Shown: in pieces, positions 532 to 38,193 of the stretch | Position numbering within the stretch: the stretch's first letter is position 1 | Layout: each line of letters starts with the position of its first letter | Source: Bacteroidetes bacterium QS_3_64_15 | GTDB taxonomy: Bacteria > Bacteroidota > Rhodothermia > Rhodothermales > Salinibacteraceae | Assembly (NCBI GenBank): GCA_003022565.1 | Contig: PXTN01000017.1 | Location: 1 to 55,512, forward strand | Direction: 5' to 3' | DNA length: 55,512 bases | Notes under the pieces: generated by a model | What the model was told of the DNA's origin: nothing | Databases searched by the model: none | What the model saw: the letters and a program-made list of their open reading frames with translations, nothing else | Position numbers and translations under genes: made by a program

Positions 532-2220
532 ATGACGGATTCCGAGCCCGATCCCCAGACGGTCCTCGTCGTCGACGACGAAAAAAACGTCCGCCTCACC
601 CTCCGACAGGCCCTGGAGGACCTGGGCCTTCAGGTGGACACGCCCGCGGGCGGAGAGGAGGCGCTCGATCGGATCGGGGACACGGAGTACGACCTGATGC
701 TCCTTGATCTCCGAATGCCGGGCCTCGACGGGCTGGAGGTACTGCAGCGGACGCGTCGGCAGGCGCCGGATCTACCGGTCGTCATCGTCACGGCGCATGG
801 CACGGTCAAAAGCGCCGTCCGGGCCATGCGGCGGGGGGCCGTAGACGTGCTTCTGAAGCCCATCAGCCTCGACTCGCTCCACGAGCTCGTGAACCGGGTG
901 CTCCAGCGGCCCACTGTCGAGGCCGGGACGGCCCCGTACGACGAGTGGGTTCGGCTCGCGACATGGCATGTCCGCCACCAGCGCACCGACGCCGCGCGCA
1001 ACTGCCTGCGCGAGGCCATCGACCAGGACGACCGGCGGTCCGAGGCGTACACTCTGTTCGGAATTCTGGAGGGCACGGACGGAGATCTCGAGGCTGCACG
1101 CCGGCACCTGGAGGCTGCCGTAGGCCGCGATCCCAACGCCACGGCGGCCCAACTCTTGCTCGACCGGCTCCGGAAAGAGGCCCATCCGTTCCCCGCTGAT
1201 CGTCCGGAGGCCCTCCTCTCCGCCCCGGTCCCGGGCGAGGATCCCGATTCTGTTCCAAAGATGCGAACGGTCTCGTCCCGACCAGGGGCCGACCGCACAG
1301 ACGTGCCACACCGCGTGCTCACCGTCCTCCCAGAGCGCATCGCCGACGGGGAGGCGGCGGCCGACCGGGCCCTGGTGCAGCTCGCCGCGGCGTCGGCACG
1401 GTCCCAGCAGCCGTCGGGAGAACTCCTCCTCCTCACGGTCATCGAGGTGCCGCGACAGCTCTCCCTCTCGCAGGCCGAGGTGGCGCACGAGGATCGCCTC
1501 CAGGAAGTGCAGTGGCAGCTCGAGGCCCTGGCCGACGAAATGAAGGGCGACACGCTGGACGTACGTCCCGTGGTGGTCGTCGCGCACCAGACGGCCTCGG
1601 TGCTCGAAAATATCATCGTCGAGCAGTCGGTGCAGCACGTCGTCGGGGCATGGCCCCCAACAAGCGGGGCCGGGATGGACGAGGACGTCGGCTGGATGTC
1701 CGCCCTGGACGATCGTTCCTGCGAAGTCACGCTCCTCCGGTCCCCTGCGGGCCCGGCGTCGGACGACGGAGCGGACGTCACGGCCTTCGTCAGCGACAGC
1801 CCATACGCCCCGTTCGTGGCGCGGCGGGCGCTGGAGTGGGCGCAGGGCAGCGGCGTGGCGTCCCTCACCCTCCTCACCTTGCAGCCCGACGACGGAACCG
1901 CGGGCGCGGAGGAGCTTCAACACCGGGGACGGCGTCTGGTCTGGGACGTGGCGGACCGGGCGGGCCTGGAAGAGGAGCAGTACGAGGGGCGCGTGGTCGT
2001 GTCGGACGACATCCCCGCGGTCGCGGCGCGCTGTGCAGGGGCGTGCGATCGGATCTGCGTTGGGGCCAGCCGGAGCTCGGCGTGGGCCGAATCCGTCTTC
2101 GGTTCTTTCCCCGAGCACCTTGCAGCGTCGACCGAGTGCCCCATTGCCCTCGTTCGGGGCCCGCAGCCCAGTCCCCGCTCGTTCCTCGAAGACCTCGGCC
2201 GTCGCCTGGCAGGGCCGTGA
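532..2220 (+). CDS. response regulator with TPR-like linker and two UspA-like domains
   Basis: Residues 10-125 are a complete receiver: acidic pair D15/D16 in VLVVDDEK, phosphoacceptor D59 in LLDLRMPG, T87 and K109. A TPR-like helical linker follows (about 140-215). Two universal-stress-protein-like domains occupy roughly 255-405 and 410-555. The second ends with the typical FGSFPEHLAASTECPIALVR pattern, but the G-2X-G part of the ATP loop is degraded, so nucleotide binding is uncertain. No DNA-binding domain is visible. The gene lies just upstream of a histidine kinase and a KtrB/KtrA pair. Since KdpD also joins K+ control to a USP domain, a role in K+ or osmotic signalling is plausible. The TGA stop is part of the first unit of an octamer array. 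Confidence 0.8.
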   Translation: MTDSEPDPQTVLVVDDEKNVRLTLRQALEDLGLQVDTPAGGEEALDRIGDTEYDLMLLDLRMPGLDGLEVLQRTRRQAPDLPVVIVTAHGTVKSAVRAMRRGAVDVLLKPISLDSLHELVNRVLQRPTVEAGTAPYDEWVRLATWHVRHQRTDAARNCLREAIDQDDRRSEAYTLFGILEGTDGDLEAARRHLEAAVGRDPNATAAQLLLDRLRKEAHPFPADRPEALLSAPVPGEDPDSVPKMRTVSSRPGADRTDVPHRVLTVLPERIADGEAAADRALVQLAAASARSQQPSGELLLLTVIEVPRQLSLSQAEVAHEDRLQEVQWQLEALADEMKGDTLDVRPVVVVAHQTASVLENIIVEQSVQHVVGAWPPTSGAGMDEDVGWMSALDDRSCEVTLLRSPAGPASDDGADVTAFVSDSPYAPFVARRALEWAQGSGVASLTLLTLQPDDGTAGAEELQHRGRRLVWDVADRAGLEEEQYEGRVVVSDDIPAVAARCAGACDRICVGASRSSAWAESVFGSFPEHLAASTECPIALVRGPQPSPRSFLEDLGRRLAGP

Positions 2221-2271
2221 GGGCGTACGGGCGTGGTTGCGTGTGGGCGTGATTGCGTATGGGGGTACGAG
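2216..2271 (+). repeat. octamer array, CGTNNNNN type, overlapping a stop codon
   Basis: Seven consecutive units of exactly 8 bases: CGTGAGGG, CGTACGGG, CGTGGTTG, CGTGTGGG, CGTGATTG, CGTATGGG, GGTACGAG. The first unit contains the TGA stop of the preceding gene. The reverse complement of CGTATGGG is the unit of the facing array at 2457. Confidence 0.85.
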
Positions 2272-2456
2272 CGATTCTCGCTCGTGCAGATTTTCGGAAA
2301 TATTTCGACAGGCTTGTTGCACGAAATCGGTTATATGTATCTACCTGGAAGCCAGTGATTTCGAGGTCACGAGGTGCACCTCGCGACCATCCCCCATGCT
2401 GTCCAGGGATTTTTGCCTCGCTGCCCTAGATGCCCGAAAGCCCGCACTCTCAGAGG
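2272..2456. other. core between two facing octamer arrays, no gene seen
   Basis: About 185 bases between the inverted octamer arrays. It contains an AT-richer patch (tcggaaatatttcgac, ggttatatgtatc) that could hold the promoter of the histidine kinase. It also holds the short palindrome GAGGTGCACCTC. No coding frame was recognised on either strand. Confidence 0.4.
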
Positions 2457-2488
2457 CCCATACGCAAATACGCCCAGACGCCCATACG
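2457..2488 (-). repeat. octamer array, NNNNNACG type (inverted partner)
   Basis: Four exact 8-base units: CCCATACG, CAAATACG, CCCAGACG, CCCATACG. They are the reverse complement type of the array at 2216-2271, so the pair could base-pair around the 185-base core. Confidence 0.8.
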
Positions 2489-2530
2489 TTCTGAATCGGT
2501 CGCCATCGTTTTTGTCAACTGCTATTTCCG

Positions 2531-12564: not shown

Positions 12565-15500
12565 TCAGTCCGACGCCTCCCCCTCGTACGGCCCGTAGTG
12601 CTTCGTGGGCTCGTCGTAGCCGAGAAGGCGCGTCTGCACCCACCCGACAGCGTCGTCCTGCAGCATCGCGATCGAGGGCACTATCAGCATGAGAACAAAG
12701 GTGCCAAAAATGATGCCCACCCCTAAGCTTACAGCCATCGGGATGAGGAATTGCGCCTGCACGCTCTGCTCGATGATGATGGGGAAGAGCCCGAGAAATG
12801 TGGTAAGCGAGGTCAGCAGGATGGGACGAAAGCGCACCTGCCCGGCCCGCACGAGGGCGTCGGGCCAATCGCGCCCCGCCGCGCGCTCCTCATTTGCGAA
12901 GTCGAGCATCACGAGCGCGTCGTTTACGATAACGCCGCTGAGCCCGACGATGCCGTAGATGCTGAGCAGGCCCAGCGAGATGTTGAGGAGGAGGTGTCCA
13001 ATGATGGCCCCAATCCAGGCGAACGGGATGGTGCCCATGATCACAAACGGCTGGAGGTAGGAGCGGAAGGGGATGGCCAGCAGGGCGTAGATGGCAAACA
13101 GCGCAAGCAGAAAGCCGATGATAAGTGCACTCTGTGCCTTGCGCTGCTCGCGCTGCTGCCCCCCGAACTGGTAGGTCATCTCCGGGACGGCCCGCTGAAT
13201 GCTGGGAAGCACGCGGGCTTCGAGGGCATTCTTGATCTCGTTTCCCGTGGTGACAGACGGATTTACGTCGGCCGTAACGGTGACCACGCGCCTTCCGTCT
13301 TGGCGGTTGATCTGGGAGGGGGCGTAGCTGAGCGACGTCGTCGCGACCTCCTCCAGCGGCACGTCAGCCCCAGCAGGGGTGCGGATGCGGTAGTCGTCCA
13401 GGTCCGCGAGGGCGTTTCGCTGGTCGTCAGGAAGGCGAGTATAGACGCGCACCTCATTCTGGCCGCGCTGCAGGCGGTACGACTCGACCCCGAAGAAGGC
13501 GGCCCGCACCTGCTGGGCCAGGTCGCTGAGGGTAAGGCCGAGCGACCGAGCGGCGGGCTTGAGCGACAGCTCAATCTCGCGCTTGCCCTCCTCCTGATCC
13601 GACTTGATGTCGTACACCCCCGCGAAGCGATCCAGCGAGTCGCGCACGGCCCCCACGGCTCGGTCGAGCCGCTGCTCAGTGGGAGCGGAGACCTCTACGG
13701 ACACGGGCTTGCCGACCGATACGACGTTGGCCGTAAACGAAAGGGAACGGGCACTCGGAATGGCATCCGTCGCCTCGCGCCATCGCTCCTCGAACTGCGC
13801 GGACGTGACGTCCCGCTCCTCCGGGTCGATCATTTCGAAGCTCACCTCGGCCACATTGGCCTTCGTCGCGGTGAACCCGGCCTGATCGGGCCCGCTGTTG
13901 GCGCGCGGCTGCTGGCCGACCGTCACGTACACGTTCTCGACGAGCCGCTGCCCGGCCTCCTCCTCCAGCTCGTTGATCGCTTCGTACCCCGTCGCCTGCA
14001 GGCGGCCGGTGATGCGCTCGGTGCGCTCCGGGGTGGTGCCAGCCGGCATCTCCAACTGGGCCGTCACCAGCTTGCCCTGCACGCTTGGAAAAAATTCGAA
14101 GCTGACGTAGCCGTTGCCCACGAAGCTGAAGGCGATGAGCAGGATCGCCACGCCGCCGCAGATCGTGACGCCGTAGCGACGGGTGGCAAACCGGAGGGAT
14201 GTCGTGAGCGGGCCCCGCACGAAGGTTTGTAGCCGAGTCGCCACCCACTGTCGCACGCGATTGAGCGTTCGGATCAGCCGGTTCGGCTCGTCGTCGCGGT
14301 TGGGGCGCTCGGAGAGATGGTACGGCAGGATGAAGAGCACCTCCACCAGCGACAGCGCCAGCACAATGATGACGATCAACGGAATGTCGCCAAGAAACTT
14401 GCCGATCGTGCCCCCGACGAAGAGGAGCGGGCTGAAGGCCGCGACGGTCGTGAGGACCGCAAAGATGACCGGGATGCCGACGCGCTGCGTGCCCCGAATC
14501 GACGCTTCCAGCGGATCGCCCTTCGCCTCTTGCTCCGCGTACACGTTTTCCCCCACCACGATCGCGTCGTCCACCACAATGCCGATGGACAGGATGAAGC
14601 CAAAGAGGGAGAGCAGGTTGATCGACACGTCCAGGTACTGCATCACGATGAACGTGCCGGTGAACGACAGGAAGATGCCCACCGAGGTCCAGAACGCCAG
14701 CCGCGGCGCCAGGAAGAGCGTGAGCGTGAGGACGACGAGGAGCAGGCCGAGGAGACCGTTCTTAATCAACAGGTTGAGCCGGCTGCGCAGGTTCTGGGCC
14801 TGGTTCTGCCAGATGGCCGCATTTAGTCCTGCCGGGAGCGCGGGGCGAAGCTCGTCGTTCAGGTACTCCTGCACGGTCTCCTCCACGGCCAGCACCTGCT
14901 CGTCGCCGGTGCGGAAGACGTTGAGAATGGCGGCGGGCTTGCCGTTGAAGCGGGTGATGAGGTCGGAGTTTTCGGCGAATCCGTCTTTGACGTGCGCCAC
15001 GTCGCCGAGCTGCACGTTCGTCCCATCCTCGCGGGAGAGGAGCACGATGTCCTCAAAGTTCGCCTTCGTGTAGTTCTGGCCCTCGGTGCGCACCGTGATC
15101 TCCTCGTTCGCCGTCTCGATGCTGCCGCCGGGCAGGTCGAGGCTGCTTTGCTGCACCAGCCCGGACACCTGCCCGAGTGTCATGCCGTACTTGCGGAGGT
15201 CTGCACGCGAGATCTCTACCGAAATCTCGTAGTCGCGCACTCCGCCGATTTGAACGAACGAGATCTGCGGGTCCTGCGTGAGGTCGTCCTTCGTGCGCTG
15301 GGCCAGTTCCTTGAGCGTGCGCTCGGTGGCGTCGCCGTAGAGGGCCACCTGGAGGGCCTGCTGTCGATTCGTGACTTCCGTCACGATGGGCTCCTCCGCC
15401 TCCTCGGGAAACGCCGTGATGCGGTCCACCTCCGACTTGATGTCGGTCCGGGCGCGGGCGAGATCCGTTCCCCGCTTCAACTCGGCCGTCACCACGCCGG

Positions 15501-15765
15501 CGTTCTCGGTGGCGGTGCCCAGGATGCGGTCGATGCCCTCCACGCTCTCGATGCGGTCCTCGATGCGGCGCACGATGGACTGCTCCACTTCCTCGGGCGA
15601 GCCGCCGGGGTAGGTCACCTCGATCTGCACCTGGTCGAGGCTAAATTCGGGGAAGACCTCCTGCACGGTCGTGTACGCCGCCGCCCCCCCGCCGATCAGT
15701 AGCACCAGCATCAGCAAGTTGGCCGCCACGCCGTTGCGGGCGAACCAGTCGATTACCCTATTCAT
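12565..15765 (-). CDS. RND efflux pump, inner-membrane permease subunit
   Basis: 1066 residues, typical for AcrB/MexB-like pumps. TM1 is at about 12-33 (NGVAANLLMLVLLIGGG), the porter region carries the early VTYPGGSPEEVEQSI, and TM4 holds the paired proton-relay aspartates in GIVVDDAIVVGENV. A second repeat has a large periplasmic loop and the late TM block FAWIGAIIGHLLLNISLGLL. It works with the adaptor and outer-membrane channel encoded upstream to export small molecules across both membranes. It is the last gene of the operon and its ATG directly abuts an octamer array. Confidence 0.93.
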   Translation of the reverse strand: MNRVIDWFARNGVAANLLMLVLLIGGGAAAYTTVQEVFPEFSLDQVQIEVTYPGGSPEEVEQSIVRRIEDRIESVEGIDRILGTATENAGVVTAELKRGTDLARARTDIKSEVDRITAFPEEAEEPIVTEVTNRQQALQVALYGDATERTLKELAQRTKDDLTQDPQISFVQIGGVRDYEISVEISRADLRKYGMTLGQVSGLVQQSSLDLPGGSIETANEEITVRTEGQNYTKANFEDIVLLSREDGTNVQLGDVAHVKDGFAENSDLITRFNGKPAAILNVFRTGDEQVLAVEETVQEYLNDELRPALPAGLNAAIWQNQAQNLRSRLNLLIKNGLLGLLLVVLTLTLFLAPRLAFWTSVGIFLSFTGTFIVMQYLDVSINLLSLFGFILSIGIVVDDAIVVGENVYAEQEAKGDPLEASIRGTQRVGIPVIFAVLTTVAAFSPLLFVGGTIGKFLGDIPLIVIIVLALSLVEVLFILPYHLSERPNRDDEPNRLIRTLNRVRQWVATRLQTFVRGPLTTSLRFATRRYGVTICGGVAILLIAFSFVGNGYVSFEFFPSVQGKLVTAQLEMPAGTTPERTERITGRLQATGYEAINELEEEAGQRLVENVYVTVGQQPRANSGPDQAGFTATKANVAEVSFEMIDPEERDVTSAQFEERWREATDAIPSARSLSFTANVVSVGKPVSVEVSAPTEQRLDRAVGAVRDSLDRFAGVYDIKSDQEEGKREIELSLKPAARSLGLTLSDLAQQVRAAFFGVESYRLQRGQNEVRVYTRLPDDQRNALADLDDYRIRTPAGADVPLEEVATTSLSYAPSQINRQDGRRVVTVTADVNPSVTTGNEIKNALEARVLPSIQRAVPEMTYQFGGQQREQRKAQSALIIGFLLALFAIYALLAIPFRSYLQPFVIMGTIPFAWIGAIIGHLLLNISLGLLSIYGIVGLSGVIVNDALVMLDFANEERAAGRDWPDALVRAGQVRFRPILLTSLTTFLGLFPIIIEQSVQAQFLIPMAVSLGVGIIFGTFVLMLIVPSIAMLQDDAVGWVQTRLLGYDEPTKHYGPYEGEASD

Positions 15766-15804
15766 CGTTGGAACGTTGGTACGTTATATGTTGGAACGTT
15801 GGGG
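15766..15804. repeat. octamer array directly upstream of the RND pump start codon
   Basis: Units CGTTGGAA, CGTTGGTA, CGTTATA, TGTTGGAA, CGTTGGGG (8, 8, 7, 8, 8 bases). It touches the pump ATG without a gap. A closely similar array in the same orientation lies on the far side of the four-helix-bundle gene. Confidence 0.8.
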
Positions 15805-15813
15805 CGGAGAACA

Positions 15814-16242
15814 TCACTCCGGCGCATCCAGGTCGATTTCGTACTCCACGCCTCTCTCCTGGACACGGGAGGCGTTGGGTTTCGACTCCAGGTACTGAAT
15901 CAGTCGGAACAGCTGTCGAGAGGCCTTATCGGCGAGGTCGTAGGTGGCCTCAAACTCAGCGTCTGACAGGTAGCCCTGATCGCAGGCAACGTAAAGCTGT
16001 GCGCGCACCTCGCCTGCGGATCCGCGTGCCCGACCGAGATGATCCACAAAGATGCTCTGTGTTCGGCTCTCGAAGCCCTCAGCGATGTTGCTCATGACCG
16101 ACACCGAGGCCCGCTGAATCTGATCGCGAAGCCCAAAATTGCTTGCGAACGGCTCCTGTTGGGTATGCTCGTAGACCCGGTTCGTCAGTGTTCGAGCCGT
16201 CTGCCAGACATCCAACTCTTCGAAGCGCTCGATTGTGGCCAT
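15814..16242 (-). CDS. four-helix bundle protein (23S rRNA-IVS protein family)
   Basis: 142 residues with the family signature: F-ELDVWQTARTLTNRVYEHT, FGLRDQIQRASVSVMSNIAEGFE, FVDHLGRARGSAGEVRAQLYVA, ATYDLADKASRQLFRLIQYL. Four amphipathic helices are predicted. Relatives are encoded in 23S rRNA intervening sequences and widely in Bacteroidota; their biochemical role is not settled. The start at 16242 (MATIERF) is chosen because the extra 37 codons of the ORF track translate an octamer array. The gene separates adaptor and pump genes of an RND operon and is bracketed by direct-orientation octamer arrays, which suggests it arrived as a unit. Confidence 0.88.
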   Translation of the reverse strand: MATIERFEELDVWQTARTLTNRVYEHTQQEPFASNFGLRDQIQRASVSVMSNIAEGFESRTQSIFVDHLGRARGSAGEVRAQLYVACDQGYLSDAEFEATYDLADKASRQLFRLIQYLESKPNASRVQERGVEYEIDLDAPE

Positions 16243-16252
16243 GGTGGTAGAA

Positions 16253-16299
16253 CGTTTGGGCGTTGGAACGTTTTTGCGTTGTACGCTGGAACGTTGCGG
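16253..16299. repeat. octamer array upstream of the four-helix-bundle gene
   Basis: Units CGTTTGGG, CGTTGGAA, CGTTTTTG, CGTTGTA, CGCTGGAA, CGTTGCGG (8, 8, 8, 7, 8, 8). Same polarity and near-identical units to the array at 15766-15804. Confidence 0.8.
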
Positions 16300-16334
16300 G
16301 AGTGGAGGACAGGTCAGAAGGGAAGCTCCGCTGT

Positions 16335-16362
16335 CAAAACGTTCAACGTTCAACGTGCAACG
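16335..16362 (-). repeat. heptamer array supplying the stop codon of the adaptor gene
   Basis: Units on the plus strand: CAAAACG, TTCAACG, TTCAACG, TGCAACG. Read in the gene direction they are CGTTGCA, CGTTGAA, CGTTGAA, CGTTTTG, and the TGA stop of the RND adaptor lies inside a CGTTGAA unit. Confidence 0.8.
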
Positions 16363-17609
16363 CGAATGTTCATGCTGTCGGTCTGCACCCGCAGATCAGT
16401 GGTGATTACCCGAGTGTCGGGATCGAGCGTCGGCGCGAGGTAGGTCTGCTCCTCCACCGTCTGGATGGGCTCGACCGGCCGCTCGACCAGCATCGAGTCG
16501 CCCTGCACGGTCCAGACCACGGGGGGCTGATCCGGGGTGCGCGTGTGCACGGCGCGGCGGGGGACCACATGGTATGTGCCGTCCTGGCGGCCCTGGATGT
16601 CCACCTCCGTATAGGTGCCCACGGCCAGGGGCGGGCGCTCCGGCGTATAGCTGCGCTCCGCCGCCGGAGGACGCTCGGGCCGCTGCGACGGGACGCGCAT
16701 CGCTTGGTCGTAGGGGTCGGGCACGCGCACCACCACGTCGACGGTGCGGGTCTGCTCGCTGACGGCCCCCTCGACGCGGTGGACACGACCCTGCCACGCG
16801 AACTCCTCCCCGCCGTACGTGGTCGTCACGGTCGCGGGCAACTTGGCCCCGGACTGCTGCCCCGTGGTCGCCCACAGGTTGCGAATGAGGGCCGCCTTGC
16901 GGGTGGGAAGGGACACGACGATCTCGGCCGCCTCGGTGCCGTAGACCGTAGCGACCGGCGTGCCCGGGGCCAGGTACGCCCCGAGGTCGGCCTGCTTCTG
17001 GCGCACCATCCCGTCGAACGGCACCTGCAGCCGGGTGCGCTCCAGGTTGGTTCGGGCGGTCTCCAGCGACGCCTTGGCGCTTTGCAGGTTGGCCTCCGCC
17101 CGGGCCACCTGCGGCTCGTTGAAGACGAACCGGCCCAACTCGGTGCTGTCGGGGGCGGGGGCTGCCCCGGCGCGCTCCTGGACGCGCTCGTAATCCGCCC
17201 GGGCGGCCCCGGCTTCCTCGCGGGCCTGGAGGAGCTGGAACTTGGCCTGCGTCACCTGCGCCTCCGCCTGCTTCAGGGCGCTGCGGTAGTCGGACGGGTC
17301 GATGCGGGCGAGCGTCTCGCCGGCCGCGAACCGCCCCCCGCTCACGAGCGCATCGGACACGTCTGCGAGGCGGCCCCCCACCTCGGCAGTGAGCTGAATC
17401 TCGCGGACGGGCTGCACCGTGCCGGTGCCGCGCACCAGCAGGCTGCCGGCTCGCACCTCCACCGGCGTCGTCGAGACGCGGGGCGACTGCGGGGGGGGCT
17501 CGCTCGTCTCTGCCTGGGGCGCAAAGGCGTATAGGACAAACATGATCGCGGCGGCGCCGACGAGAATGCCGGCGCCCACCAAGTACCACGTAAGGTCGCT
17601 ACGGTCCAT
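16350..17609 (-). CDS. RND efflux periplasmic adaptor (MFP/HlyD family)
   Basis: 419 residues. An N-terminal membrane anchor (WYLVGAGILVGAAAIMFVLYAF) is followed by the biotinyl-lipoyl half-motif (GTVQPVREIQLTAEVGGRLADV), a long alpha-helical hairpin rich in Ala, Glu and Gln (about 110-200), the returning half (VPFDGMVRQKQADLGAYLAPG) and beta-barrel/MP domains. It bridges the RND pump and the outer-membrane factor. The start MDRSDLTWYL at 17609 is preferred to the track start because it leads straight into the anchor. The stop lies in a heptamer array. Confidence 0.92.
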   Translation of the reverse strand: MDRSDLTWYLVGAGILVGAAAIMFVLYAFAPQAETSEPPPQSPRVSTTPVEVRAGSLLVRGTGTVQPVREIQLTAEVGGRLADVSDALVSGGRFAAGETLARIDPSDYRSALKQAEAQVTQAKFQLLQAREEAGAARADYERVQERAGAAPAPDSTELGRFVFNEPQVARAEANLQSAKASLETARTNLERTRLQVPFDGMVRQKQADLGAYLAPGTPVATVYGTEAAEIVVSLPTRKAALIRNLWATTGQQSGAKLPATVTTTYGGEEFAWQGRVHRVEGAVSEQTRTVDVVVRVPDPYDQAMRVPSQRPERPPAAERSYTPERPPLAVGTYTEVDIQGRQDGTYHVVPRRAVHTRTPDQPPVVWTVQGDSMLVERPVEPIQTVEEQTYLAPTLDPDTRVITTDLRVQTDSMNIRVAR

Positions 17610-19150: not shown

Positions 19151-19152
19151 CT

Positions 19153-19188
19153 GAAAACGTTTAACGTTAAACGTTAGAACGTTGAACG
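19153..19188 (-). repeat. heptamer array between the TetR and efflux-channel genes
   Basis: Units GAAAACG, TTTAACG, TTAAACG, TTAGAACG, TTGAACG (7, 7, 7, 8, 7). It fills nearly the whole spacer between the regulator stop and the lipoprotein ATG, so it is transcribed in the operon mRNA. Confidence 0.8.
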
Positions 19189-19195
19189 ACTAACT

Positions 19196-19831
19196 TCAGG
19201 GCGCAAGGCCGTGATAGATGAGGTCGAACAGGTGCTCCTTCCGGACCTCCACGAACGCCCCCCAGTCGCCCGCCGCGTCGGGATGCATGATCTCCACCGT
19301 CGGCCGGGCCACGAAGAAGAAGAGACACGTCGAGATCACGGAAAGGACCGTGTGGTGGGGATCGACCGACCGAATCTCGCCTGCCTCGCTCGCGGCCGCG
19401 ATGGTGTCGACCAGAATCTGAGGCGGAGCCTCCCCGGATTTCGTTGCCTCACGCAGGTGCTTGCCGAGCAGGCTGCCTCCGGCCAGGTTTTCCTGCACCA
19501 TCAAGCGCATCGCCGCCTCATCGGACCGCACGAACTCGACGTACCCGTCGATGAAGACGCGGAGCGTCTCCTCAAAGGTTGGTGCCTCCTCCAGCGACTC
19601 GCCGAACGACGCCATGAACCGACGCACCGTGTGGGCGAAGACCTCCTCGTACAGCGTCTTCTTGTCCCGGAAGTAGTAGTGCAGCATCGCCTTGTTGATG
19701 TCGGCCGCGTCGGCGATGGCCTGCATGCGCGCCCCGTGCCGGCCCTCCCGGGCAAATACCTGGAGGGCCGCGTCGAAAATCTGACGCTCTGTGTCGGAAT
19801 AGTCGGAGCGCGGAGTGGAGGCGTCGGGCAT
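19196..19831 (-). CDS. TetR/AcrR-family repressor of the RND operon
   Basis: 211 residues. The N-terminal helix-turn-helix is typical: RQIFDAALQVFAREGRHGARMQAIADAADINKAMLHYYFRDKKTLYEEVF. The C-terminal ligand domain is of the TetR_C type. The start at 19831 (MPDASTPRSD) is chosen because the 65 upstream codons of the ORF track cover the likely operator and carry no domain. As the first gene of the operon it probably represses itself and the efflux genes until an efflux substrate binds. Confidence 0.9.
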   Translation of the reverse strand: MPDASTPRSDYSDTERQIFDAALQVFAREGRHGARMQAIADAADINKAMLHYYFRDKKTLYEEVFAHTVRRFMASFGESLEEAPTFEETLRVFIDGYVEFVRSDEAAMRLMVQENLAGGSLLGKHLREATKSGEAPPQILVDTIAAASEAGEIRSVDPHHTVLSVISTCLFFFVARPTVEIMHPDAAGDWGAFVEVRKEHLFDLIYHGLAP

Positions 19832-26502: not shown

Positions 26503-26619
26503 CATTCATCCAGAAGGGTGAAGGGAGCAGGCCCTCTGAAGCCCTGGCAACCGCCGTCAGTGTCCATTGACGGAAAGGTGCCCCATCCTGCCTCGACTGC
26601 TGTCGAGGAAAGATGAGTG
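26503..26619 (+). ncRNA. S-box (SAM-I) riboswitch aptamer
   Basis: The conserved core is present in order: P1 strand CATTCATC, CAGAAGGGTGAAGGGA, GGCCCTCTGAAGCCC, TGGCAACC, then AAAGGTGCC and a closing GAAAGATGAGTG. The last segment pairs with the P1 5' strand (CATTCATC with GATGAGTG, one G-U). Binding of S-adenosylmethionine stabilises P1. It stands before metY and metX, with an intrinsic terminator 25 bases downstream, so high SAM should stop transcription. Confidence 0.93.
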
Positions 26620-26643: not shown

Positions 26644-28132
<1,489 letters not shown>

Positions 28133-28138
28133 TCAGAG

Positions 28139-28210
28139 CGTGATACGTGATTCGTGATACGTAATGGTCAGCAGAGCGGTATTCTCACGTATCACGTTTC
28201 ACGCATCATC
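28139..28210. repeat. facing heptamer arrays between metY and metX
   Basis: Left units CGTGATA, CGTGATT, CGTGATA, CGTAATG (28139-28166). Right units TCTCACG, TATCACG, TTTCACG, CATCATC (28183-28210), which are the inverted type. The two halves can pair around a 16-base loop, so the metYX transcript would carry a hairpin here. Confidence 0.8.
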
Positions 28211-28249: not shown

Positions 28250-29323
28250 ATGTCGCAGGCGCTGACGATTTCAACATTCACCCTCGAAAACGGCACGACG
28301 CTGCGGGACGTGCCCGTGGCGTACCGGACGTGGGGCACGCTCAACGACGCGGCGGACAACGCCGTCCTCGTGTGCCATGCCCTCACCGGCGGCACGGATG
28401 TCGACGAGTGGTGGAGCGGGCTTCTCGGTCCCGGTCGGGCGCTCGACCCCGCGGAGGACTTCGTGGTGTGCCTGAACGTGCCGGGCTCGCCGTACGGCTC
28501 GGTGTCCCCGGTGACGGCCGATCCGGGCACGGACGAGCGCTACGGTCCCAACTTTCCGGCGTTCACGATCCGCGACACGGTGGCCCTGCACCGTCGCGCG
28601 CTGGAGCGTCTTGGCGTGCGGGAGGTGGCCTGCGCCCTCGGCGGCTCGATGGGCGGGATGCACGTGCTGGAGTGGGCCTTCGAGACGACCACGGACGGAG
28701 CCCCGTTCGTGCAGTCGCTCGTGCCCATCGCCGTGGGCGGGCGCCACACGGCCTGGCAGATTGGCTGGAGCGAGGCGCAGCGGCAGGCCATCTACACCGA
28801 TCCGAAGTGGCGCGGCGGTGAATACCCCCCGGACGACCCGCCCCGGGACGGCCTCGCCACGGCCCGTATGATGGCGATGGTGTCGTACCGGTCCCAGGCG
28901 TCGTTCGAGGGGCGGTTCGGGCGCGACGTAATGCCGGAAAAAGACGGAACGCCCTACGCGGTGGAAAGCTACCTGCGGCATCAGGGCGAGACGCTCGTCG
29001 ACCGCTTCGACGCGAACTGCTACGTGGCCCTCACGCAGGAGATGGACACCCACGACGTGGCCCGGGATCGAGGGAACTACGAGGCGGTGCTCGCCTCTAT
29101 CGGGCAGCCGAGCCTCGTCGTGGGCATCGACTCCGATGTGCTCTACCCGATCCCTGAGCAGCGGGAGCTCGTGGAGCATCTACCCTGCGCCACCCTGGAG
29201 GTGCTGGAGGCCCCGCACGGCCACGATTCGTTTCTCATCGAGCTCGACGCGCTCAACGCCCTCGTCGCGTCCTGGCGGGCCGAGCGAACCGCGACGCAGT
29301 CGTCGGTACGGTGTGAAGCGTGA
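28250..29323 (+). CDS. metX: homoserine O-acetyltransferase
   Basis: 357 residues, alpha/beta-hydrolase fold. The oxyanion region is CHALTGG; the nucleophile is Ser133 in GGSMGGMHVLEW; the acid is in VVGIDSDVLYP and the base His in PHGHDSFL near the end. LNVPGSPYGSVSP and the conserved PDDPPRDGLATARMMAM segment are typical of MetX. It transfers acetyl from acetyl-CoA to homoserine, giving the substrate of MetY. The TGA stop belongs to a heptamer repeat unit (CGTGACT). Confidence 0.94.
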   Translation: MSQALTISTFTLENGTTLRDVPVAYRTWGTLNDAADNAVLVCHALTGGTDVDEWWSGLLGPGRALDPAEDFVVCLNVPGSPYGSVSPVTADPGTDERYGPNFPAFTIRDTVALHRRALERLGVREVACALGGSMGGMHVLEWAFETTTDGAPFVQSLVPIAVGGRHTAWQIGWSEAQRQAIYTDPKWRGGEYPPDDPPRDGLATARMMAMVSYRSQASFEGRFGRDVMPEKDGTPYAVESYLRHQGETLVDRFDANCYVALTQEMDTHDVARDRGNYEAVLASIGQPSLVVGIDSDVLYPIPEQRELVEHLPCATLEVLEAPHGHDSFLIELDALNALVASWRAERTATQSSVRCEA

Positions 29324-29389
29324 CTCGTAAGGACTGTGGCGTAAGGCAGGACCCGTAAATTCATCACGCATCGCGAATCACGAATCACG
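29319..29389. repeat. two converging heptamer arrays between metX and the hybrid kinase
   Basis: From the metX side: CGTGACT, CGTAAGG, ACTGTGG, CGTAAGG, CAGGACC, CGTAAAT. From the other side: CATCACG, CATCGCG, AATCACG, AATCACG, which read CGTGATT in the kinase direction. Each array starts at the stop codon of its own gene: the metX TGA in the first unit, the kinase TGA in the second-to-last. Confidence 0.82.
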
Positions 29390-32300
29390 ATCGGAGCGTG
29401 CCGGCGTGTGGGCTTGGTCCGGGAGCGCCTCGGCGAGGGCCTCGCCTTTGATGGGCTTGCTCAGGAAGTCGTCGGCCCCGGCCTCCCGACAGCGCCGGCG
29501 GTCCTCCTCCGTCACCGCAGCCGTCAGGGCGATGATGTAGGGCTGCTCGTCGGCGGGCCACTCTTCGCGGATGCGGCGCGTAGCCTCGAGCCCGTCCATC
29601 TCCGGCATCTGCACATCCATCAGCACGACATCGAAGGACCGCTCCTGAAGGTCGTCCAGGGCATCGAGTCCAGTGGGAGCAACCTCCACGTCGTGCCCCT
29701 CATTTTCCAGCAACTGAGTGGTCATCTGCTGGTTGACGGTATCGTCTTCGGCCAGCAGAATGCGCAGGGACGCCTGCCCAGGCCGCTCCGTCTCGCCGTT
29801 TTCTTCAGCGACGGGGGACGACGCGCCGAGCACCTCCGCCATCGTCTCATAGAGGTGCGCCTGCTTGACGGGCTTATGGACCTGTGCCTCGCACGTCACG
29901 TCGTCCTCGTTGTGGTGCTGGACCGAGCTGAGTAGGACAATCGGCGCGGGGCTCGTGTCTTGGTACTCGCGCAGACGGTCTCCCAGCGCAGGCCCGTCCG
30001 TGTCGGCCAGTCGGGCATCCAGAAGGAGCAGATCGAAGGCCGGACCGTCGCAGAGGTGGTCGCGCACCTCCGCGGGGGTCGACGCGACGGTTGCCTCCAT
30101 GCCGCCGTGCTCGACCTGCTGACGGAGGAGGGCGCGGGTCGTCGGGTTGCGATGGCCCTCCAGGGCCGAAGGCGCGGCGGGGCCGGACCCGTCCTCGCCC
30201 GCCTCCACCTGGATGGTGAAGTGGAACGTGGCCCCCTCGCCCACCTCGCTCTCGACCCAGATCTCTCCGTCCATCGCCTCGACAATTTGCTTCGAGATGG
30301 AGAGTCCAAGGCCGGTGCCTCCATGCGTACGGGTCGTCGACGAGTCGGCTTGGCGAAACGACTCAAACAGGGTGTCCTGCTGCTGCTCGGGGATGCCGGG
30401 GCCGGTATCGCGGACCTGGAAGTGAAGCTCGTAGGGCTCGCCCGGCTCAGAGGGGGTGGACGCCGCCTCCACGCGCAGCACGACCTCGCCCTCGTCGGTG
30501 AATTTGACCGCATTGGAGAGCAGGTTGAGGAGCACCTGATGCAGCCGCGTCTCGTCGCTTCGGATGACGGCGGGCACGTCCGGGTCGACCCGGTACGTCA
30601 GTTCCACGCCCTTCTCGGCGGTCGCCGTGGCAAGGGGATCCAGGGCCTCCTCGACACTGGACCGCAAATGGATCGGCTGCGTCTCCAATTCGGTCTGGCC
30701 CGCCTCCAGCTTCGAGAAGTCGAGGATGTCGTCGATGATGGAGAGCAGGGTGCCTCCGCTCCGCTGGATGGCGTCCACGAATTCCTGCTGCTCCGGCGTG
30801 AGGTCGGTGTCCTCCAAGAGATCAGCGAACCCGATGACCCCGTTCATCGGAGTGCGGATTTCGTGGCTCATGTTGGCGAGAAACTTGCTTTTGGCCTGCG
30901 CCGCCGCGAGCGCATCTTCGCGGGCCTCTTCCAGCTCTTCGGTCCGTTCAGCGACCTTCTCCTCGAGAAGGCGTTGGCGCTTCTCCAGCGACCACGTGCG
31001 CCAGCGGATGATGCCGACGACGAGGCCGACCCCGCCAAGTGCACAGAGAATGTAGAACCAACTGGTCCGCCAGAAGGGCGGTTCGATCGTAAAGGCGTAG
31101 GTGGCGGCCTGCTCGCTCCAGTTTCCGGTCCCGTCGGCGGCTTTTACCGTAAACGTATACGAACCGGGGGGGAGGTTAGAGTAGGTGGCCCGGCGCTGCG
31201 TTTGAACGGACGACCACTGTGAATCGAGGCCCTCCAGTCGGTACTGGTAGGTAGTCGTTTCCGGCGCCTTGTAGTTGAGGCCGGCGAAGCGGAAGATGAG
31301 GTGGTTCTTGTCATGAGGCAGCTTCAGGCCGGCCGGAAGGTTCTCCCAGGCTGTCTGCCGACGGGCATAGTGGCTCCAATCTGGCGTTCCGGAGAAAAAG
31401 CGGAGCCCCGTTACGTGGACTCGAGGGGGCGTGGTGTCGGGACGGTTTTCATTGGGATGATAGCGCGTGAGTCCATGTCCCGTCCCGAACCACGTGGACC
31501 CATTTTGTGCCTCAGTGACGGCGTGCCGAGCAGCCTCGACCCCGAAGAAGCCATCCTCTTTTCCGTACGACCGGATGGGCATTGTGCCTGTATGCTTGTA
31601 CGTGCGCGTGTCGAGGCGATTGACCCCCTTCTCCGTGCCGGCCCACAGGTGCCCGTGGCGATCGAGCAAAAGCGACACCGTCGTCGAGCCGCTGAGGCCA
31701 TTCTCCGGAGTGAACGCCGCGAGCGAGTCGGCTTCTGGGGAATCGACGTAAACGCCCCGCACGGTACTCATCCAGATGTAGCCGTCGGCGTCGACCTCGA
31801 GACACACGAGCATTCCAACTCGAGACGGATCGAGTGATCGGACGGTCTCGAATGCGTCGTCTTCAAGTCGTGTGACGGTTTCTTTAAAGCCGACCCAGAG
31901 TTGTCCCTGCTCGTCGACTGTGAGGGCACGGACAGCGTTGCTCGGCAGTCCGTCCTCAGTCGTAAACCGCTCGAAGGAAGAGTCATCATAGCGAAAGAGG
32001 CCGTTCCGAAGGGTTGCAAACCAGAGCGTGCCCGCCGGTGTCTCGGCGATGTCGACCGTGAGGCCCACCGGTTCGCCCTCTACACGCGAGTGCGACGTGT
32101 ACGTATCCCCGTCATAGGAGAACAGCTTCGTCCGGGATGCAGCCCAGAGGGTTCCCGTCCGATCGGAGTGGAGTGACAGAAGCTCGCGGTTGAGTCCGTC
32201 CTTCGGTGCGTTTACCTCTGTCAACGAGGTGCCGTCGTAGCGACCGAGTCCATTCCGGGTGGCGATCCAAAGATCCTCATCGGGGCCCTCGGTGACGTCC

Positions 32301-38116: not shown

Positions 38117-38193
38117 CCCAACGTTGAACGTGTACCGTTTAACGTGCAACGCGCCACGTCTAACATGCAACGCGCCACGCCCCACGCATCAGT
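38117..38193 (-). repeat. heptamer array overlapping the epimerase stop codon
   Basis: Eleven units in exact 7-base register: CCCAACG, TTGAACG, TGTACCG, TTTAACG, TGCAACG, CGCCACG, TCTAACA, TGCAACG, CGCCACG, CCCCACG, CATCAGT. The last unit contains the TGA stop (TCA on this strand) of the GDP-mannose-epimerase-like gene. TGCAACG-CGCCACG is itself repeated. Confidence 0.85.

Follow-up and report, generated by a model that had tools for sequence, protein, structure and literature searches.

Four-helix-bundle genes flanked by inverted heptamer arrays as a putative compact mobile element in many phyla

The four-helix-bundle gene of an RND operon

The window analysed here, a stretch of 55,512 nucleotides from Bacteroidetes bacterium QS_3_64_15, is contig 17 of 131 in a draft genome of 2.62 Mb. 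Its minus strand carries an RND operon with the genes of an HlyD/CusB-type adaptor (419 aa, positions 16350..17609, profile matches HlyD_3 and HlyD_D23) and of a pump (1066 aa, 12565..15765, ACR_tran). A sequence-only reading had claimed that a gene for a four-helix-bundle (4HB) protein parts the two, and the open reading frames and profile matches confirm this: the gene (15814..16242, minus strand, 142 aa) is the sole ORF of the intervening cassette and matches both PF05635 (E=7.7e-32, 110.1 bits for a cut-off of 33.8) and TIGR02436 (E=1.6e-28, 99.1 bits for a cut-off of 24) in profile searches. Three arrays on the same strand surround it. The outer-left heptamer array (CGTTGCACGTTGAACGTTGAACGTTTT in gene sense, 16331..16362) overlaps and supplies the stop codon of the adaptor, where the same reading had placed it and where TRF finds it at 16338-16362 with period 7. 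The inner-left array (CAACGTTCCAGCGTACAACGCAAAAACGTTCCAACGCCC, 16243..16298; TRF 16250-16281) has the opposite direction, and the right array (CAACGTTCCAACATATAACGTACCAACGTTCCAACG, 15766..15813; TRF 15766-15802) abuts the start codon (ATG) of the pump. The order in gene sense is therefore outer-left array (GTTGAAC direction), 45-nt spacer, inner-left array (CAACGTT direction), 4HB gene, and right array (CAACGTT direction). The two left arrays are predicted to form a hairpin around the spacer of about 45 nt, with a fold of -31.8 kcal/mol for 16243-16362. The period-7/8 score at the cassette exceeds that of dinucleotide shuffles on the left (p=0.002) and on the right (p=0.0015), and there are 16 copies of ACGTT/AACGT in about 190 bp, where the window as a whole has 2 per kb, i.e. 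an enrichment of about 40-fold. A module of about 50 bp is shared in direct orientation by the inner-left and right arrays (score 27; 0/500 shuffles), whereas the outer-left and right arrays are inverted relative to each other (score 14; shuffle maximum 12). An Rfam scan of the window returned a SAM riboswitch only and no rRNA, and the cassette is inserted between RND genes, not in an rRNA gene. The riboswitch (RF00162, 81.8 bits) lies at 26503-26619.

The source genome encodes six PF05635 genes, and by reading each of them is bracketed by short repeats with a unit of its own, such as CATTTGTT at L005, CGTGATA/TATCACG at L006, and GAGTCATGAG with its complement at L003. The unit of the window cassette, AACGTTNAACGTTNAACG, has 63 matches in the genome with at most two mismatches; the reversed control has 2. 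Gene-free pairs of inverted arrays also occur in genomes carrying cassettes. One pair of inverted octamer arrays, found by TRF and reading at 2213..2496 (2213-2258 and 2446-2496, with a spacer of about 190 nt), lies between response-regulator and histidine-kinase genes and is a candidate non-autonomous relative of the cassette. TRF finds further gene-free arrays, whose units belong to the families of two 4HB genes resident in this genome: AACGTTNA at 19151..19197, upstream of an efflux outer-membrane gene, and AACGTTGAACGTG at 38117..38193, both of the window cassette's family; an inverted CGTGATA / TATCACG hairpin at 28131..28208, of the family seen at L006; and an inverted GTGAAGC / ATCACGA pair at 29310..29398, downstream of a metX-like gene. 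A metX-like gene is flanked by two inverted CGTGATA-type hairpins (28131-28208 and 29310-29398), possibly two gene-free elements, or else ends with cargo between them.

We located the RND operon in 60 relatives by its adaptor. The site is occupied by a 4HB gene in seven genomes of the genus (G000, G001, G002, G003, G006, G010, G012) and in four of other genera of the family (G013, G016, where the frame is broken, G018, G022). The empty site that the earlier reading had called for exists in six relatives (G004, G011, G014, G015, G020, G021), against these 11 occupied ones, and consists of a short adaptor-pump spacer only. No occupied relative has the gene without arrays: they are present every time, the two sides match each other, and the unit varies between species (AACGTTG, GGGTTGAG, AAGGTTG, GGGATTGG). 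In G011 and G004, short inverted remnants of GATTGAAAATTG type persist at the empty site. The dN/dS among the 4HB orthologues of this site is 0.06-0.19 (median 0.10), showing that the protein is kept under purifying selection. The proteins of G006 and G010 are only 65% identical to that of the window, with GGGTTGA arrays, and the adaptors are 72-78% identical. The RND-site 4HB sequences form no clean clade in the gene tree, and the correlation between 4HB and adaptor identities is moderate (rho 0.41); such a tree would fit re-insertion or replacement as well as uneven rates. Three unrelated loci share one 4HB subfamily, with ACGTT-type arrays each time. Within this family, the copy at 15766-16362 is long established and conserved in the RND operon, and some species have lost it; it is not a recent insertion. 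That it has not moved across genera, unlike a restless element, counts against mobility.

Arrays and their units across phyla

Our comparison base comprised hundreds of genomes and plasmids. PF05635 is encoded in 236 of the 297 sampled genomes of the phylum (79%), with at least 15 copies in some among the matches listed. For a wider sample, the 4HB alignment was scanned against genome contigs, giving a cross-phylum set of 80 loci; about 20 phyla are represented, and a Methanophagales archaeon is among the hosts. An array was called at period 7 or 8 with at least 19/28 matches at the lag, within flanks of 200 bp, and windows 500-1300 bp away served as controls. At this threshold, arrays are present in 84/156 (54%) of the cross-phylum 4HB flanks, against 25/567 (4.4%) of the distant windows and 1/156 shuffles. 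They occur on at least one side in 60/78 loci, about a quarter being without an array at this strict threshold, and the best period is 7 in 69/78. Other samples agree: 36/90 4HB flanks against 3/349 controls within the genus, 30/58 against 0/221 in order-level relatives, 44/64 against 13/223 in viral contigs, and 24/60 against 12/240 in a sample of Bacteroidota. The bracketing expected by the sequence-only reading at other 4HB genes is thus seen at all six in this genome and at most of those in the approximately 20 phyla. We considered whether the array-poor cross-phylum loci were rRNA intervening sequences (IVSs) and rejected this, since Rfam gave no rRNA in 19 such loci.

The base rate of intergenic arrays was taken from 800 kb of the relative G011 (about 630 genes). 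This region has 16 intergenic arrays, of which only 2 are at a 4HB gene. Given this majority of gene-free arrays, they may have a life of their own, which counts against the cassette reading. Arrays are not exclusive to 4HB genes, yet the flanks of these genes are many-fold enriched: ordinary genes do not carry them equally, the 200-bp 4HB flanks having arrays in 40-54% of cases against 1-4% in ordinary DNA. In nearly all loci there are flanking genes within 600 bp on both sides. Relative to the cassette, both neighbours are on the same strand in 100 loci, on the opposite strand in 50, and mixed in 61 (211 loci), i.e. insertion takes place into operons of either orientation, with the sense one in two-fold excess. 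Six loci of Bacteroidota (L324, L325, L328, L330, L332, L343) have differing 4HB cassettes and units before the start of a similar-looking thiolase-like gene (KEAYIIDGIRT). This site, found in several genomes, may be a hot spot or a place of ancient residence.

The arrays were initially described as direct. This holds for the inner-left and right arrays of the window, but across the family the two ends are inverted. When left and right arms are compared, the reverse complement beats the direct form in 53 loci against 19, and in 40/78 the inversion of the ends exceeds the 95th percentile obtained when arms from different loci are paired. Polarity is consistent in 101/115 left arms and, once complemented, in 70/78 right arms. 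The averaged left unit in gene sense is T-N-A-G-Y-N-N (TNAGYNN), with the G at 0.90. We rejected direct repeats as the general layout, which is found only in these two arms of the window and in a few loci (L140, L129).

The unit covaries with the 4HB protein. Among pairs from different phyla, the similarity of units is correlated with that of the proteins (Mantel r=0.33, 0/2000 permutations), and shows no correlation with host phylum (r=0.014, p=0.35). After removal of near-identical pairs, the correlation between unit and protein is 0.25 across phyla, 0.39 in relatives, and 0.33 in viral contigs; in the small set of the genus Salinibacter alone, it is not significant (r=0.10, p=0.18). Protein similarity itself barely tracks the phylum (r=0.05), which indicates wide transfer of 4HB genes. 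When a genome has several copies, the unit differs from copy to copy. Together, these comparisons show that the heptamer unit belongs to the cassette, in that it tracks the lineage of the 4HB protein and not the host. Because unit and protein covary, we have strong reasons to infer that the 4HB protein recognises its own unit. In an analysis of coevolution between residues and unit, with an effective n of only 62, the top signal is a lead and involves the base after AG and columns near residues 2-3, 59-64, and 78 of L097.

Insertion sites and explanations for the cassette

Six pairs of occupied and empty sites in cyanobacterial plasmids, with net insert sizes taken from annotated coordinates, support the earlier suggestion of a mobile cassette: the gene and its arrays are inserted as a unit. 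Net inserts are 415-506 bp, and at the best-resolved sites they correspond to the 4HB ORF and arrays alone. Site 1, in an operon of Nostoc plasmids, is occupied in C052_D, ATCC 53789 pNsp_a, and N6, with sibling plasmids empty and a net insert of about 417 bp; one gene further in the same operon, at site 2, pNsp_c holds a different 4HB gene with AGGGGAA arrays (about 506 bp). Site 3, in Calothrix PCC 7716, is between a T1SS adaptor and an ABC transporter and is empty in two NIES-4105 plasmids (about 415 bp). Site 4, in a conjugation region with flanks 97-100% identical, is occupied in Trichormus ATCC 29413 and Scytonema NIES-4073 (428 bp), where it reads GTTAAAAAGTAAT / AAATCAGAATTCAGAAGTCAG... 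4HB ...CTGACTCCTGAGTTCTTCTTTGT / AATTAACAAATAA, the slashes marking the junctions; in Nostoc carneum, Aulosira, and Tolypothrix 7601 it is empty and reads GTTAAAAAGTAATTAACAAATAA, with no array. Site 5, in a Picosynechococcus PCC 7003 plasmid (L305, 1977-2333), is between cas10 and cmr3 and empty in PCC 7002 (about 416 bp), and site 6, in Nostoc edaphicum, has the cassette between nrdB and nrdA, on the strand opposite to theirs, and is empty in Calothrix NIES-4105 (about 457 bp). The arrays coincide with both insert ends, or lie at most about a dozen bases from them, at sites 1, 4, and 6; at site 2 there are about 35 bp beyond the right array. The only gene in the inserts is the 4HB ORF: we found no transposase (DDE, HUH, or other), integrase, or reverse-transcriptase gene. 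By comparison of occupied and empty sites, these pairs show that the cassette inserts as a unit between genes, usually within operons, adding about 0.42 kb. Possible target duplications of 3 bp were noted at two sites only (AAT at site 4, ATG at site 2); they are short, uncertain, and unclear elsewhere, and were set aside as evidence.

Two plasmid loci are informative about other events. In L311 (Nostoc C052 pC052_E, 1153-1285), site 4 contains a decayed and truncated 4HB remnant, with sister plasmids empty, which may represent loss through decay and not clean excision. In L264 (Nostoc N6 pNPM1, about 1022-1580), the 4HB ORF is interrupted by an insert without a gene, whose inverted TCAGAAG/TCAGGAG arrays share the unit of the host cassette: a nested non-autonomous element, possibly mobilised in trans.

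The AF2 model of the window 4HB protein (pLDDT 89, pTM 0.82) has helices at residues 11-27, 36-57, 62-88, and 94-120. Its closest solved folds are 2GSC (XCC0516) and 2RLD, followed by Avd (4DWL) and Avd in the ribonucleoprotein of a diversity-generating retroelement (DGR; 8UBE). It matches the four-helix bundle of 2GSC/2RLD with a TM of 0.82-0.93 by target length, and the 2GSC protein has been reported as a homopentamer (PMC4990558). We consider it likely that the gene and its inverted arrays are one compact mobile element, in which the 4HB protein binds cognate heptamers to license mobilisation. The element would consist of a left heptamer array, the 4HB ORF, and a right heptamer array, the two arrays forming inverted ends that face each other. 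The protein, an Avd/S23-type bundle with a pentameric solved relative, could bind several cognate units at once, on folded single-stranded DNA or RNA, and might in this way draw the two ends together; it would then license the mobilisation of its own cassette and, in trans, of gene-free derivatives. Because the cassette encodes nothing else, cutting and joining would depend on host replication and repair acting on the array hairpins, or on an unrecognised activity of the 4HB protein, for which Q41, R44, S48, N52, E55, and E78 (window numbering), all among the residues invariant in 26 diverse members, would be the candidates. We are more tentative, and close to evenly divided, on the larger claim that 4HB proteins and cognate inverted arrays make a complete mobility system of a new mechanism, without transposase, recombinase, or reverse transcriptase, spread across much of the bacterial tree, parent of the 23S IVSs and source of many orphan heptamers.

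These observations might also be explained if the arrays came first, as products of replication slippage or as hairpin terminators or attenuators in intergenic DNA, into which 4HB genes land or recombine as passive cargo. Gene-free arrays are indeed common, they are able to form hairpins in predicted folds, and heptamer arrays have been published as orphan repeats (PMC4679880, PMC4692102). Yet empty sites with flanks 97-100% identical lack any array (at site 4, GTTAAAAAGTAATTAACAAATAA), and therefore the arrays arrived with the gene; moreover, the unit follows the protein across phyla instead of the host, and a genome has multiple units, one for each 4HB copy. This makes a purely passive gene quite improbable. 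Another hypothesis, that the 4HB protein is an ordinary operon member, a regulator or accessory of RND efflux with the arrays as regulatory sites, could account for its conservation at the RND site in 11 genomes of the family and for purifying selection. We give it very little credit: six relatives have an intact RND operon without the gene, and the family is found as well in T1SS, cas10-cmr3, cas6-cas4, nrdBA, accBC, and conjugation-gene surroundings.

A third possibility is an RNA route, where the transcript of the cassette is excised like an IVS and copied back by a reverse transcriptase acting in trans, the 4HB protein having a role like that of Avd in DGRs. The Avd-like fold, with matches to 4DWL and to the Avd of the DGR ribonucleoprotein (8UBE), fits this, as does the 23S IVS of Coxiella, which has the same ORF, heptamers, and terminal stem and is excised as RNA by RNase III (PMC4990558). 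However, in a search of 60 relatives, RVT_1 was not found in G000 (an 84% complete draft), G001, G003, G006, G009, or G010, each of which has 5-10 4HB genes, and in 50/211 loci, e.g. L308, both neighbours are on the strand opposite to the cassette. We rejected dependence on reverse transcriptase as a general requirement, RVT_1 being absent in most cassette-rich relatives, and regard the RNA route as unlikely. The reading of a compact element mobilised through its 4HB protein is the one we retain. Our data support its generalisation to what would be a widespread transposase-less element of about 420 bases in about 20 phyla.

Significance and comparison with known systems

To our knowledge, PF05635 genes have no known function. 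They are absent from the 14 model genomes that we used as controls, which may explain why they have been overlooked. If the 4HB protein drives a heptamer-ended element, then the role of the S23p/IVS protein, the origin of the 23S IVSs, and the litter of heptamers become one question, and the arrays in cyanobacterial, Bacteroidota, and Xanthomonas genomes would be explained by it. Methods based on genome neighbourhoods would misread cassette insertions as operon partners. For instance, "23S rRNA IVP" appears among CRISPR-linked domains (PMC10910872), a listing that cassettes between cas genes can explain: besides L305, a 4HB cassette lies between cas6 and cas4 in Pseudanabaena galeata (L306, 1989-2348).

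Heptamer repeats have been described several times: TAACTGA in Beggiatoaceae and cyanobacteria (PMC4679880), and GGGAATC and GGGGA(C/T)T, the latter of Nostoc, as generally unassociated with mobile elements (PMC4692102). The published heptamers of cyanobacteria, Beggiatoaceae, Bacteroidetes, and Xanthomonas have been cast as orphans with regulatory or quadruplex roles, and no link to 4HB genes was drawn. In the full-text literature within reach, which excludes subscription papers and preprints, we found no paper tying 4HB genes to heptamer arrays as a general element. The published orphan heptamers TAACTGA, GGGAATC, GGGGACT, and GACAGAT correspond to units found beside 4HB genes: rotating AGTTATC, the unit at L126 and L135, gives the complement of TAACTGA, and GGGGACT rotates to GACTGGG, the unit at L140. 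Head-to-tail degenerate 7-mers in intergenic DNA (STRR-like) are present in cassettes. We tested the resulting prediction on G705, the one GGGAATC-rich genome among 369 of its gammaproteobacterial class. Its sole 4HB gene separates accB from accC; GGGAATC repeats mark the start of the gene and GATTCCC-type repeats its end, and the genome also has a gene-free locus with both arrays, inverted. The 4HB gene itself (L361, G705:C14:68006-68197) looks broken, since the profile match ends at 64 of 106 and the right array is read through in the C-terminal part.

The 23S IVSs resemble the cassettes in anatomy. In Coxiella burnetii (PMC4990558), the IVS is 428 nt long, has a terminal stem of 28 bp, and carries three GACAGAT heptamers ahead of its S23p ORF. 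It has in common with the cassettes the protein family, an ORF between terminal inverted repeats, heptamers directly upstream of the ORF, and a length close to that of the net inserts of 415-506 bp; rotated to AGATGAC, its heptamer is the right-arm unit of the Lewinella cassette L155. Unlike IVSs, which occupy rRNA helices and are cut out by RNase III, the cassettes are located between protein genes, often several per genome, and they have gene-free derivatives and cassette-specific units. The sequence-only reading had invoked the IVSs to make mobility of the family plausible. The anatomy is the same in Coxiella, and judging from it, the 23S IVSs look like one special form of the cassettes and not like their source. 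The resemblance of PF05635 to Avd has already been published (PMC10053308). The 4HB protein shares the fold of 4DWL (TM 0.88 by target length), but with 14% identity, and the cassettes are without adjacent reverse transcriptase, template, or variable repeat. A further likeness is with REPIN/RAYT and with MITEs and their transposases, where an element with a protein gene coexists with many gene-free derivatives having common ends; the cassettes differ in being without HUH or DDE transposase, and in having as ends tandem heptamers instead of fixed short palindromes.
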